DNA of 64,000 bases from an uncultured Helicobacter sp. (GCA_949299115.1 CASFZH010000002.1:1-64000), one strand, 5' to 3'. Shown: positions 53,225-57,352, counted from the stretch's first letter. Notes: generated by a model from the sequence alone, not told the origin. Translations and numbers: made by a program.

Positions 53225-53779
53225 TTAGATAAGACGATACGGTGCTTGCCCAGTCTCATAGAAATTATTGCCATGACAGTCAATAGCTACAATTGCTGGA
53301 AAATTTTCTATTGTTAGTCGTGCCACAGCTTCAGGTCCGAGTTCTGGATAAGCTAAAACTTCATATTTTTTGATACAATTTGATATAAGTGCTGCCGCTC
53401 CACCGACTGCTACCATATACACTACTCCATGTTTTATCATGGAATCTATAACCGCTTGATTACGGTAACCTTTTCCAATCATACCGCTAATACCTTGTTT
53501 AATAATTGTTGGAGTATATTTATCCATTCTCCCACTTGTTGTTGGTCCAGCTGAACCGATAGCATGTCCAGGTTTGGCTGGACTTGGTCCTAAATAATAA
53601 ATTGTTTCATTTGTTAAATCAATAGGTAGTTTTTCATTCCTTGCCAATGCTTCTGTTAAAGCCTTGTGTGCAGCATCTCTTGCTGCAATGATGGTGCCAC
53701 TAATTAAAACTGTATCACCAGCTTTTAATGTCCCGCCTATCTCTCGAGTGAAAGGTGCTTGCAACTGTATTTCTGACAT
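53225..53779 (-). CDS. fumB: Class I fumarate hydratase, beta (C-terminal domain) subunit
   Basis: This subunit completes the two-part iron-sulfur fumarase that hydrates fumarate to malate. The 184-residue swivelling domain has LKAGDTVLISGTIIAARDAA, YYLGPSPAKPGHAIGSAGPT, TSGRMDKYTP and IGKGYRNQAV, followed by VYMVAVGGAAAL. AAAGGAG precedes the ATG. The alpha subunit is encoded 1.6 kb upstream on the same strand, with hemerythrin genes between them. Confidence 0.9.
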   Translation of the reverse strand: MSEIQLQAPFTREIGGTLKAGDTVLISGTIIAARDAAHKALTEALARNEKLPIDLTNETIYYLGPSPAKPGHAIGSAGPTTSGRMDKYTPTIIKQGISGMIGKGYRNQAVIDSMIKHGVVYMVAVGGAAALISNCIKKYEVLAYPELGPEAVARLTIENFPAIVAIDCHGNNFYETGQAPYRLI

Positions 53780-53805
53780 ATTATCTCCTTTAAAATAAAT
53801 TATAA

Positions 53806-54480
53806 CTATACTTTCATATCATTGATATACGTAATATTCGTATTGCAGTGTTTACAGAATATTGGATGTCCACTTTGAATTTTTGTGTGAATACTTGGAG
53901 AAATATTATATACCTTTCCACACATACAACTATAAATATGCAAAACACTATTCTTTTTAACAGCTTTTGCTGTATTAATATTTGGATTGTTATCAGGTTG
54001 ACTTTGTGAAGAATATTCTGATTCTATGAAAGCATTTTCTAATATATTATCTTCAGCCATACTGAAATCATGTTGTTCTTTTCTTGTCTTTGCGAGTATC
54101 TCTTGTTGGAACTCGCCTATTTTCATATCTTCTTGTAAAATATGTCTTAGAAGCCATTGTTCCGTAATAATAGCAAGCTGTTGTTTAAAATCGTATTTCA
54201 TATTTTTAATTAAAAATGTCATTTCAGTTACAATTTCTCTATGATGTTCCCTATGAATACTCAAATATGGGAAATTAATAGATTGCATATATGCCTCTTC
54301 GTCATGAAAATGAGTTCGCATATATTCAAATAGGGCTACTAATATTTTCTTGATTTCTACCGGGTCAGTTTGTTTGCCAATCATATTATCAGCCATATTT
54401 GCTAATTCAAAAAGTTTTTTATGTTGTTCATCTATCATGAAATTATGAACACTGTACTCATTGCTCCATTTTGGTAACAT
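53806..54480 (-). CDS. Bacteriohemerythrin with a C-terminal zinc-ribbon-like tail, copy 1
   Basis: The 224-residue protein has all seven di-iron ligands of hemerythrin: IDEQHKKLF, then THFHDEEAYM, SIHREHHREI and LLRHILQEDM. Such proteins bind O2 reversibly through a di-iron centre. The C-terminal part, from about residue 180, has YSCMCGKVYNIS and FCKHCNTN, a CxC/CxxC set that looks like a zinc ribbon or rubredoxin-like site. GGGAGG precedes the ATG. It lies directly before the fumarase beta gene in the same direction. Confidence 0.88.
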   Translation of the reverse strand: MLPKWSNEYSVHNFMIDEQHKKLFELANMADNMIGKQTDPVEIKKILVALFEYMRTHFHDEEAYMQSINFPYLSIHREHHREIVTEMTFLIKNMKYDFKQQLAIITEQWLLRHILQEDMKIGEFQQEILAKTRKEQHDFSMAEDNILENAFIESEYSSQSQPDNNPNINTAKAVKKNSVLHIYSCMCGKVYNISPSIHTKIQSGHPIFCKHCNTNITYINDMKV

Positions 54481-54863
54481 AATGCCTCCCTATTTATGGT
54501 TAAATTACACTTCGATATCAGCAACAAATTTAATAAATGTTGTGCATTCTGGGCACTTAACACCATCACCTGCTTGAATTTTAGCGTGTATATCAGGAGA
54601 AATATTGTAAGTTTTTCCACACAAACATGTATACATATGCATTTTTCCTTTTTTAATCTCAACATTCTTTTTGGTTTCCATTACAGATTTCTGTAAAAGG
54701 GTATTATGTTCTTCGTTAGATTTAACATCAGTTGCTGACTTTTGCATACGCTTACGATTTGTTTCTTCAAGATATTTGGCATAACCCATATCTTCTTGTA
54801 AAATATGTCTTAGAAGCCATTGTTCCATAATAACAACAAGCTGTTGTTTAAAATCATATTTCA
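54125..54863 (-). repeat. Near-identical segments shared by the two hemerythrin genes
   Basis: Segments of about 80 bases starting at 54125 and 54788 (offset 663) differ by only a few bases, and the segments around 54330-54425 and 54993-55088 are similarly close. They encode the LLRHILQEDM and ELANMADNMIGKQTD regions. Recombination between them could remove or add one gene. Confidence 0.7.
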
Positions 54864-55143
54864 TATTTCGTACTAAGGTTGTCATTTCAGTTACAATCTG
54901 TTTGTGTTTCTCTTTATGTAATTCAAGGGAAGGATATTGAATATTCTCCATATACACTTCTTCATCATGAAAATGAGTTCGCATATATTCAAATAAGGCT
55001 GCCAATATTTTCTTGATTTCTGCTGGGTCAGTTTGTTTACCAATCATATTATCAGCCATATTTGCTAATTCAAAAAGTTTTTTATGCTGTTCATCTATAA
55101 GATAATTTTTTACACTATATTTATCGTCCCATTCTAATAACAT
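54505..55143 (-). CDS. Bacteriohemerythrin with a C-terminal zinc-ribbon-like tail, copy 2
   Basis: This 212-residue paralogue of copy 1 keeps the ligand set (IDEQHKKLF, THFHDEEVYM, ELHKEKHKQI, LLRHILQEDM) and the tail YTCLCGKTYNIS and VKCPECTTF. The DNA of the two copies is nearly identical over long stretches (for example around 54125-54200 and 54788-54863), which points to a recent duplication or gene conversion. It lies 24 bases upstream of copy 1 and is almost certainly cotranscribed with it and the fumarase genes. Confidence 0.88.
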   Translation of the reverse strand: MLLEWDDKYSVKNYLIDEQHKKLFELANMADNMIGKQTDPAEIKKILAALFEYMRTHFHDEEVYMENIQYPSLELHKEKHKQIVTEMTTLVRNMKYDFKQQLVVIMEQWLLRHILQEDMGYAKYLEETNRKRMQKSATDVKSNEEHNTLLQKSVMETKKNVEIKKGKMHMYTCLCGKTYNISPDIHAKIQAGDGVKCPECTTFIKFVADIEV

Positions 55144-55153
55144 GTCTATATCC

Positions 55154-55375
55154 TCACTTTGATTTATAATTTATTGACAATGATATTGGATTTATCATTT
55201 TAACCCTATGATACTTCTTACAAATATGTAAATACAAGAAATTAATAGATTGTTTGTATTCTCCTTGTTTATTAAGTATAGTATGCTTATGTTCACTAAA
55301 ATCAGAAAAACTTTCATGTTGTCCATTTATACGAATATTCTTAATTTTGTATTTATCATTCCGTCTCGTGAGCAT
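55154..55375 (-). pseudogene. Decayed third hemerythrin copy
   Basis: A short frame with a GGGAG ribosome binding site reads MLTRRNDKYKIKNIRINGQH, then a jump to YKQSINFLYLHICKKYHRVK. These match the start of copy 2 (MLLEWDDKYSVKNYLIDEQH) and an internal segment of copy 1 (YMQSINFPYLSIHREHHREI). The central helix between them is deleted, most iron ligands are gone and the end is frameshifted. It lies between fumA and hemerythrin copy 2, so the array once had three members. Confidence 0.7.
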
Positions 55376-55420
55376 TAATAATATTCTCCCAAGCTTACTA
55401 TATTCAATATATCGTGTATT

Positions 55421-56266
55421 TTATAATTCAACACTATAGTGCCTTGCTGCATGACAATTTACATTAATAGCTACAGGCATACCTGCTATATGTGTTGGAT
55501 ACCATTCCACATTAACTCCAAAGGCAGTAGTGTTCCCACCTAAACCTTGTGGTCCAACCCCTGTTTTATTGGCAAGTTCTAATAATTCCTGTTCCAATGC
55601 AGCATATTGAGGGTGAGGATTCTTGGAATCTATAGAACGGATAGCTGCCTTTTTTGCAAGAATAGCTGCTTTTTCCATTGTTCCACCTATACCAACACCT
55701 AAAACCATTGGAGGGCAAGCATTGGGACCAGCAAGTTTAACTGCTTCCAAAAATAAACTCTTTACTCCTTCTAAACCGTCTGCTGGAACAAGCATTTTAA
55801 GGAGACTTTTATTTTCACTACCAAATCCCTTTGGGGCCACTGTAATTTTTATTTTATCTCCTGAAACTATTTCTGTATGCAAAACAGCAGGTGCATTATC
55901 GGTTGTATTTTTTCTTTCAAATAAGGGTTCATTTACTACAGATTTACGTAAATAGCCATCTTTATATCCTCGCCTTACTCCCTCATTGACTGCATCACTA
56001 AATAATCCGCCGACAATGTGAATGTCCTGTCCAATTTCGGCAAATATTACAGTCATTCCAGTATCTTGACAAATAGGCATCATGTTATTTTGTGCAATCT
56101 CTCCATTTTTTATCAAAGTCCCTAATATGCTTTTTCCAATTGCAGATTGTTCAATTTCTTGAGCTTTTTTAAAGGCATTTTTAATGTCTGGTGTTTGCAC
56201 ACAGCATGCCTTAATACACAGCTGCTTTATGGTTTCTGATATTTCTTCACATTGAATTTCACGCAT
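55421..56266 (-). CDS. fumA: Class I fumarate hydratase, alpha (N-terminal domain) subunit
   Basis: This 281-residue subunit holds the oxygen-sensitive [4Fe-4S] cluster of the two-part fumarase. The three cluster cysteines are in MPICQDTG, GPNACPPMVLG and INVNCHAARH. KNPHPQYAALEQELLELANK and GVGPQGLGGNTTAFGV are also conserved. AAGGAG precedes the ATG. The upstream region, shared with the divergent SurA-like gene, contains a T13 tract. Between fumA and fumB lie two hemerythrin genes and a remnant. Confidence 0.92.
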   Translation of the reverse strand: MREIQCEEISETIKQLCIKACCVQTPDIKNAFKKAQEIEQSAIGKSILGTLIKNGEIAQNNMMPICQDTGMTVIFAEIGQDIHIVGGLFSDAVNEGVRRGYKDGYLRKSVVNEPLFERKNTTDNAPAVLHTEIVSGDKIKITVAPKGFGSENKSLLKMLVPADGLEGVKSLFLEAVKLAGPNACPPMVLGVGIGGTMEKAAILAKKAAIRSIDSKNPHPQYAALEQELLELANKTGVGPQGLGGNTTAFGVNVEWYPTHIAGMPVAINVNCHAARHYSVEL

Positions 56267-56375
56267 AGTTAAACTCCTTAATGACTAGGGTCATGTAATT
56301 TCAAGCATTGAATTCTTTATTGCACCTATTGTATCTTTTTTGAGTTTAAAAAAAGTTTAATCTTTGAGAAAATTG

Positions 56376-56388: not shown

Positions 56389-56452
56389 GTAATTAATATC
56401 TTAATATGTTAAAATTATTTTATTAATTTTATTTTATTAGGAATGATTGAAA

Positions 56453-57352
56453 ATGAATCGCAAATTTTTTATCTCTATAAGTATGGTTATTTTTCTATTC
56501 ATACAATATTTGCAATCTTCAGAAGAACATTCAACACAATATGGCTCTTCACTACCACATACAAATAATACAAAAATTGTTGGTGGAATAGCACTTTTTG
56601 TAAATGGAGAACCTATTACAATATATGCCATTGAAAAGGCACAAAAGCTTTTGCATACGGATAAGTTGCGTGCTACTGATTTTCTTGTTATGGAAAAATT
56701 ACGAGAAAGTGAAATTAAAAGATTAAAAATTGAAGTATCAGATTCGCAAATTGATGCTCAAATTACTCAAATTGCACAACAAAATGGTATGAATATTGAG
56801 CAATTTTATGCGGCTATTATGAAAGAAGGTATGAGTTTGGTGGAATATCGGACAAAATTAAAAGAACAGATTTTGGTGCAAGAATTAATGAGAAAAATAC
56901 TCTTTTCAAGCAATGTGGGGCAAGAAGATGAATTAAGAAAATATTATAACGAACATCTACATGAATTTGTGATACCAAAAAAAATTGATATCATCAAATT
57001 TGTTAGCAATGACAAACAAAGCTTAGAAAATTTCATTAAACAAGGCATACAAAGTGTATTACCAAATAATATAGTGAAAGCAGAGGAGACTCTTGAAATT
57101 AGTTCATTGCCCAATCAAATTGCTGATGTGTTGTTGGTTACAGCGGAAAATAATTTCAGTCAAATTTTAGAAGCAGAAGATAATAATTATGTATCATTTT
57201 ACATTAAACACAAGCTTTTGACAGAACAAGTTTCCTTTGATAAGGCAAAAAACTATATTGCTCAAAAGATTATTGCCAATAATCAAGAAAAAATCCTTAA
57301 TGATTATTTTGAAAGAGTAAGGAGTCGCTCTAAAATAGTGTTTGTTCGTTAA
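56453..57352 (+). CDS. SurA-like periplasmic chaperone / peptidyl-prolyl isomerase-type protein
   Basis: The 299-residue exported protein (signal FISISMVIFLFIQYLQSS) has a SurA N-domain pattern: IALFVNGEPITIYAIEKAQK, then helices with AQITQIAQQNGMNIEQFYAA and GMSLVEYRTKLKEQILVQEL. The later part is in the place of a parvulin domain but lacks its usual motifs. SurA proteins guide outer-membrane proteins through the periplasm. The ATG at 56453 has AGGA about 10 bases upstream. Confidence 0.75.
   Translation: MNRKFFISISMVIFLFIQYLQSSEEHSTQYGSSLPHTNNTKIVGGIALFVNGEPITIYAIEKAQKLLHTDKLRATDFLVMEKLRESEIKRLKIEVSDSQIDAQITQIAQQNGMNIEQFYAAIMKEGMSLVEYRTKLKEQILVQELMRKILFSSNVGQEDELRKYYNEHLHEFVIPKKIDIIKFVSNDKQSLENFIKQGIQSVLPNNIVKAEETLEISSLPNQIADVLLVTAENNFSQILEAEDNNYVSFYIKHKLLTEQVSFDKAKNYIAQKIIANNQEKILNDYFERVRSRSKIVFVR

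Follow-up and report, generated by a model that had tools for sequence, protein, structure and literature searches.

Two bacteriohemerythrins of Campylobacter jejuni, HerA (Cj0241) and HerB (Cj1224), are the closest described relatives of the proteins analyzed here. In herA and herB mutants the activities of Por and Oor are lost in air, and the mutants regain Por activity at the wild-type rate, which points to protection rather than repair (PMC4257069). Recombinant HerB has a plain hemerythrin spectrum, herA adjoins the Fe-S assembly genes iscS-nifU, and the sensitive enzyme in these assays was not fumarase (PMC4257069). The authors doubted simple O2 sequestration because O2 diffuses in faster than binding could occur (PMC4257069). 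A second system is RIC/YtfE, an Fe-S repair protein tied to fumarase and aconitase (as summarized in PMC4257069). Few explanations of the oxygen limit of microaerophiles have been tested, and protection of Fe-S enzymes by hemerythrins is one of them. Among such enzymes, class I fumarase, which works in the citric acid cycle, has an O2-labile [4Fe-4S] cluster.

We analyzed a window of 64,000 nucleotides from an uncultured Helicobacter sp., in which two bacteriohemerythrin genes (Hr1 and Hr2) are found together with the genes of a class I fumarase. Hr1 and Hr2 have the ligand set of the bacteriohemerythrins HerA and HerB and, at the C terminus, the CXC/CXXC extension of HerB. Unlike HerA and HerB, for which we found no report of a fumarase-operon location and whose tested clients were Por and Oor, they are flanked by the genes for both subunits of an Fe-S dehydratase, whose promoter element they share. 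With RIC/YtfE they have in common the hemerythrin-like di-iron fold, but their Cys4 tail and the lack of a ScdA_N-type N-terminus set these bacteriohemerythrins apart. The fumarase resembles other two-subunit class I enzymes (TtdA/TtdB superfamily; NF004885 and NF005310) in having three cluster cysteines in the alpha subunit; it differs from the usual case in that its subunit genes are split by the two hemerythrin genes rather than adjacent.

Layout of the fumarase-hemerythrin locus

The features of the locus, in window coordinates, are as follows.

56447-57352, plus strand: SurA/PpiC-like gene, divergent; a constant neighbor and anchor of the locus, both in this genus and in the sister genus
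56343-56360, minus strand: invariant operator-like element TTAAACTTTTTTTAAACT, a direct repeat of TTAAACT with an 11-bp period, 94 bp before the fumA start
56328-56333, minus strand: -10-like box TACAAT just 3' of the 18-nt element; TANAAT in all relatives
55421-56266, minus strand: fumA, alpha subunit of a two-subunit class I [4Fe-4S] fumarase, 281 aa
55154-55375, minus strand: decayed third hemerythrin copy in the fumA-Hr1 spacer, a 73-codon ORF with an internal deletion and its ligands lost
54505-55143, minus strand: Hr1, HerB-type bacteriohemerythrin, 212 aa
54544-54633, minus strand: zinc-ribbon-like Cys4 tail (CxC...CxxC) of Hr1, aa 171-200, with C173, C175, C197 and C200
53806-54480, minus strand: Hr2, HerB-type bacteriohemerythrin and Hr1 paralogue, 224 aa
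53845-53934, minus strand: zinc-ribbon-like Cys4 tail of Hr2, with C185, C187, C209 and C212
53225-53779, minus strand: fumB, beta subunit of class I fumarase, 184 aa

The gene order on the minus strand is thus fumA, Hr1, Hr2, fumB. An earlier sequence-only reading had proposed that fumA and fumB are separated by two bacteriohemerythrin genes in the same direction, and this was borne out, as all four ORFs were recovered at the coordinates above and the profiles agreed. Both fumarase subunits are full length and exceed curated cut-offs: fumA matched PF05681 (E 2.9e-114) and NF004885 (403 bits; cut-off, 276), and fumB matched PF05683 (E 2e-61) and NF005310 (258.8 bits; cut-off, 238). The FumA motifs ICQDTG, ACPPM, and NCHAAR start at residues 65, 183, and 270, and we take their three conserved cysteines to be the cluster ligands. 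The short spacers of the same reading were correct for Hr1-Hr2 (24 bp) and Hr2-fumB (26 bp) but not for fumA-Hr1, whose 277 bp hold the decayed hemerythrin. Across six divergent genomes the first two spacers measured 14-33 and 22-30 bp, and the fumA-Hr1 spacer ranges from 186 to 649 bp. A YbdD-type small protein (PF04328; 52910-53134, minus strand) is encoded directly 3' of fumB and falls below the 80-aa limit of the ORF list.

Hr1 and Hr2 are intact hemerythrins under purifying selection

Hr1 and Hr2 scored 101.3 and 86.2 bits with NF033749 (cut-off, 84), both exceeded the PF01814 cut-off, and no other protein in the 2.62-Mb genome matched PF01814. The seven di-iron ligands (H-H-E-H-H-H-D) are intact in both proteins, at H20, H57, E61, H76, H80, H113, and D118. 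An AlphaFold2 model of Hr1 (pLDDT 84.9) has the four-helix hemerythrin fold, with DcrH-Hr and bacteriohemerythrin as the best Foldseek matches (TMt up to 0.84). In two genome pairs, dN/dS was 0.024-0.036 for Hr1 and Hr2, close to the 0.013-0.042 of fumA and fumB; Hr1 and Hr2 are under strong purifying selection. An exception to these low values is Hr2 of G043 (L036:3419-4093), which has lost the last four of the seven ligands while keeping its frame and Cys tail, and whose dN/dS against G045 was 0.167, showing that a single hemerythrin copy can decay. The decayed third copy in the fumA-Hr1 spacer scored 32.7 bits, compared with a shuffle maximum of 25.8, and a remnant of similar kind was seen in G044. 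Remnants in this spacer (window 55154-55375, minus strand; L037:4658-5306) indicate that the tandem array grew and shrank.

An invariant element precedes fumA or Hr1

The 18-nt element consists of two TTAAACT copies separated by TTTT and is followed after 8-9 bp by a TANAAT box. It was invariant in ten genomes, being located before fumA in nine of them and directly before Hr1 in G038, which is without fumA and fumB. Among seven representatives, only 12 of 92 flanking columns were invariant, compared with all 18 positions of the element, and synonymous sites between these species are near saturation, yet the element is unchanged. Local alignment of the G038 Hr1 upstream region with all six fumA upstream regions gave scores equalled by none of 200 shuffles, and the same region gave no match to fumA-Hr1 spacers. 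In genome searches the element occurred once each, at this locus, in G000, G038, G040, and G047 and was not found in six other genomes; a literature search for it returned no match. Its position before Hr1 in G038 implies that the element would be able to drive the hemerythrins, and because it stands before fumA and, in that species, before Hr1, it is likely a hemerythrin promoter in at least one species.

With regard to operon structure, the four genes lie on the same strand behind one shared element, with spacers of 24 and 26 bp but of 277 bp before Hr1. No terminator match was found on the coding strand between the genes from fumA to fumB. The fumA-Hr1 spacer could be the site of a separate promoter; a sigma-70 promoter scan was uninformative, as its 20 promoter-like sites, compared with 24 expected, were no better than shuffles. 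The shared element supports co-production and makes one transcript in this strain plausible. Of the proposal that an O2 buffer is co-produced with the enzyme it protects, the first half thus gained ground from the conserved spacers, the lack of a coding-strand terminator match, the invariant promoter element, and G038.

Taken together, these data suggest a reading that we regard as reasonably probable, namely that one operon makes general Fe-S guards together with a single oxygen-labile client. Under this reading, fumA-Hr1-Hr2-fumB would be one transcription unit with a single regulated promoter upstream of fumA, and would yield two HerB-type hemerythrins alongside both subunits of the [4Fe-4S] class I fumarase. 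Hr1 and Hr2 would use the canonical di-iron site to bind O2 or to react with oxidants derived from it, and would guard the oxygen-labile Fe-S enzymes of the cell in general, with fumarase as the client encoded beside them and Por and Oor as probable further clients. Co-transcription in this strain, O2 binding by Hr1 and Hr2, protection, and its targets are what we infer. A general guard function is favored because C. jejuni HerA and HerB protect rather than repair and because the RIC/YtfE profile TIGR03652 (FeS_repair_RIC) matched in none of the 14 genomes of the genus.

The 18-nt direct repeat has the look of a dedicated operator, and the locus points to a novel regulator. This operator-like appearance is also in keeping with a role of the hemerythrins in O2 delivery, O2 sensing, or iron storage, tied to a fum promoter that responds to O2 or the respiratory state, and roles of this kind occur among hemerythrins elsewhere. 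We nevertheless consider this highly improbable here, since Pfam profiles revealed no sensor domain fused to Hr1 or Hr2 and such experiments as there are on relatives indicate protection (PMC4257069).

Linkage of hemerythrin and fumAB genes across the family

We surveyed 121 genomes of the family. The fumAB genes were present in 58 and class II FumC in 57, and none of the 121 had both; one genome, G046, has neither fumarase class and no hemerythrin. The survey of other genomes called for by the sequence-only reading showed that each of the nine members of the genus with fumAB has both hemerythrin genes nested in this way; the relatives include H. rappini. Elsewhere in the family the expected side-by-side arrangement of fumA and fumB prevailed, as it was found in 47 of 49 fumAB genomes, with the remaining two split by other sequence. 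This difference argues that the nesting is neither chance nor an assembly artifact. The two exceptions are G099, where CstA and YbdD genes form an unrelated insertion between fumA and fumB (L047:3984-8354), and G081, where 1.3 kb of repeat-like non-coding sequence with no ORF longer than 63 aa separates fumA from fumB (L046:4880-6200).

A second genus, which comprises Candidatus H. avicola, H. equorum, and others, has the order fumA-fumB-Hr in five of six genomes, with spacers of 21-114 bp, and this trio is kept across two neighborhoods that share no other gene in the compared stretches. The hemerythrin of the second genus forms a separate clade in the tree, so the fumAB-Hr linkage probably arose twice. 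In total, hemerythrin genes were linked to fumAB in 14 of 42 genomes having both and never to fumC in 20. The 14 linked genomes belong to only two clades, so that these counts are phylogenetically clustered and the Fisher p of 0.0026 does not come from an independent test. A crude model gives a probability of roughly 1e-4 to 5e-4 that two linkages of this kind would arise by chance among seven genus-level lineages. In lists at the level of the order, no further fumA-Hr adjacency was seen by eye among the matches listed.

Hemerythrins were equally common with either fumarase class once the H. pylori-type genus was set apart: 42 of 58 fumAB genomes had them, compared with 20 of the 23 remaining FumC genomes. 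The other 16 genomes with fumAB are without hemerythrin. These 16, and four species in which hemerythrins outlived fumAB, indicate that the two are dispensable to each other. A family-wide correlation of hemerythrin with class I fumarase, significant overall, was set aside as driven by the hemerythrin-less H. pylori-type genus.

These patterns bear on the possibility of neutral hitchhiking, whereby chance placed the two hemerythrin genes between fumA and fumB, where the fum promoter drives them in a cell-wide role unrelated to fumarase. It would accommodate the retention of hemerythrins where FumC replaced fumAB, the lack of linkage in 28 of the 42 fumAB genomes with a hemerythrin, and the existence of another unrelated fumA/fumB insertion (CstA-YbdD in G099). 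It accounts less well for a second, independent linkage that survives a change of neighborhood in another genus, with its low chance under the crude model, and for nesting that persists in every fumAB member of the genus though the genes beyond fumB differ. We consider hitchhiking unlikely, while giving it appreciable weight.

Evolutionary history of the locus

In the sister genus, g9, TPR-SurA-like is divergent from fumA-fumB, with no hemerythrin, and the rpoB and FumA+FumB trees agree on this relationship. The order in the genus of this locus is a SurA-like gene divergent from fumA-Hr1-Hr2-fumB, and the genes beyond fumB vary within the genus. A 665-aa gene beyond fumB in relatives, considered as CstA, proved to be transketolase. 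Four species of the genus with FumC in place of fumAB keep hemerythrins, three of them at the same place. In H. aurati, H. muridarum, and G038 the SurA-like gene is divergent from the hemerythrin genes and fumA and fumB are missing (the H. aurati contig stops within the second hemerythrin gene), and in H. saguini, also a FumC species, the two hemerythrin genes are apart.

The simplest account would be that the hemerythrins entered a pre-existing fumA-fumB pair in the genus ancestor, and that fumAB afterwards gave way to FumC in one or two events that spared the hemerythrins. The proposed direction of insertion is based on the hemerythrin-less fumA-fumB pair at the same neighbor in the sister genus, together with parsimony; insertion of fumAB around an older hemerythrin pair is less likely for the same reason. 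In the FumC tree, two rows with wrongly chosen frames were disregarded and the other rows used. An AU test (p 0.144) did not reject a single replacement event.

The idea that the hemerythrins are tied to fumAB only was rejected, as the FumC species keep them, and their persistence beside FumC makes exclusive service to fumarase unlikely. The buffer as protector of this particular enzyme, the second half of the original proposal, is weakened by the same four species and by hemerythrins being equally common in FumC genomes other than those of the H. pylori-type genus. The locus can be regarded as a natural experiment, since species of one genus differ in the setting of the hemerythrins, which share an element with a labile fumarase, have that element to themselves, or occur alongside oxygen-stable FumC. 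The guard hypothesis is directly testable here, with evolution supplying the matched controls.

The Cys4 tail and a possible role in repair

Both Hr1 and Hr2 have a C-terminal extension with CXC and CXXC motifs, as in HerB, joined to the hemerythrin domain by a linker. The tail cysteines were invariant in 31 aligned tails, including those of Campylobacter HerB-like proteins, and the isolated tail folds confidently (pLDDT 86.4). DPH3 was among the best matches in tail profile searches (E about 0.001), and hhalign of the tail with DPH3/Kti11, a single pair comparison, gave a probability of 91.7. The CSL zinc ribbon profile PF05207 scored 18.7 bits, below its Pfam gathering score of 29.2, with sub-threshold matches in 12 of 42 relatives. 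In Foldseek the best matches were sirtuin zinc ribbons, at a weak E of 0.11, and DPH3 was absent from the top 50. The tail thus resembles the CSL zinc ribbon of DPH3/Kti11 in its CxC...CxxC spacing and beta-beta-alpha-beta outline but differs in being fused to a hemerythrin, in falling below the Pfam cut-off, and in the preference of Foldseek for other zinc ribbons. We regard a possible kinship to the DPH3/Kti11 ribbon as a lead. Hemerythrins unlinked to fumAB carry the same tail, which is therefore not fumarase-specific.

The tail raises the alternative of a dedicated fumarase guard or repair system, in which the hemerythrins would act on FumA and FumB at assembly or return iron to an oxidized [3Fe-4S] cluster via the Cys4 tail. 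The position of the hemerythrin genes between the two subunit genes fits such a role, as do the absence of a RIC/YtfE repair protein from 14 of 14 genomes of the genus and the alignment of the tail with a DPH3/Kti11-type zinc ribbon, a type of protein reported, in titles cited in PMC10468694, to donate electrons or iron to a [4Fe-4S] enzyme. On the other hand, four species retain the hemerythrins without fumAB, the tail also occurs on unlinked and Campylobacter HerB-like hemerythrins, Por recovery in the C. jejuni mutants is wild-type and HerB has a plain hemerythrin spectrum (PMC4257069), and the CSL match is sub-threshold and not singled out by Foldseek. We judge a dedicated system improbable. 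More improbable still would be co-assembled cluster guardians that couple the hemerythrin to the zinc ribbon, combining local O2 removal, iron or electron return via a DPH3-like Cys4 center, and a dedicated regulator of the TTAAACT repeat; if true, this would be a built-in protect-and-repair module for microaerophiles without RIC/YtfE. We note that in G120 tartrate-dehydratase-like ttdA-ttdB genes are convergent to the gene of a hemerythrin without the Cys tail (L048:4242-6594).
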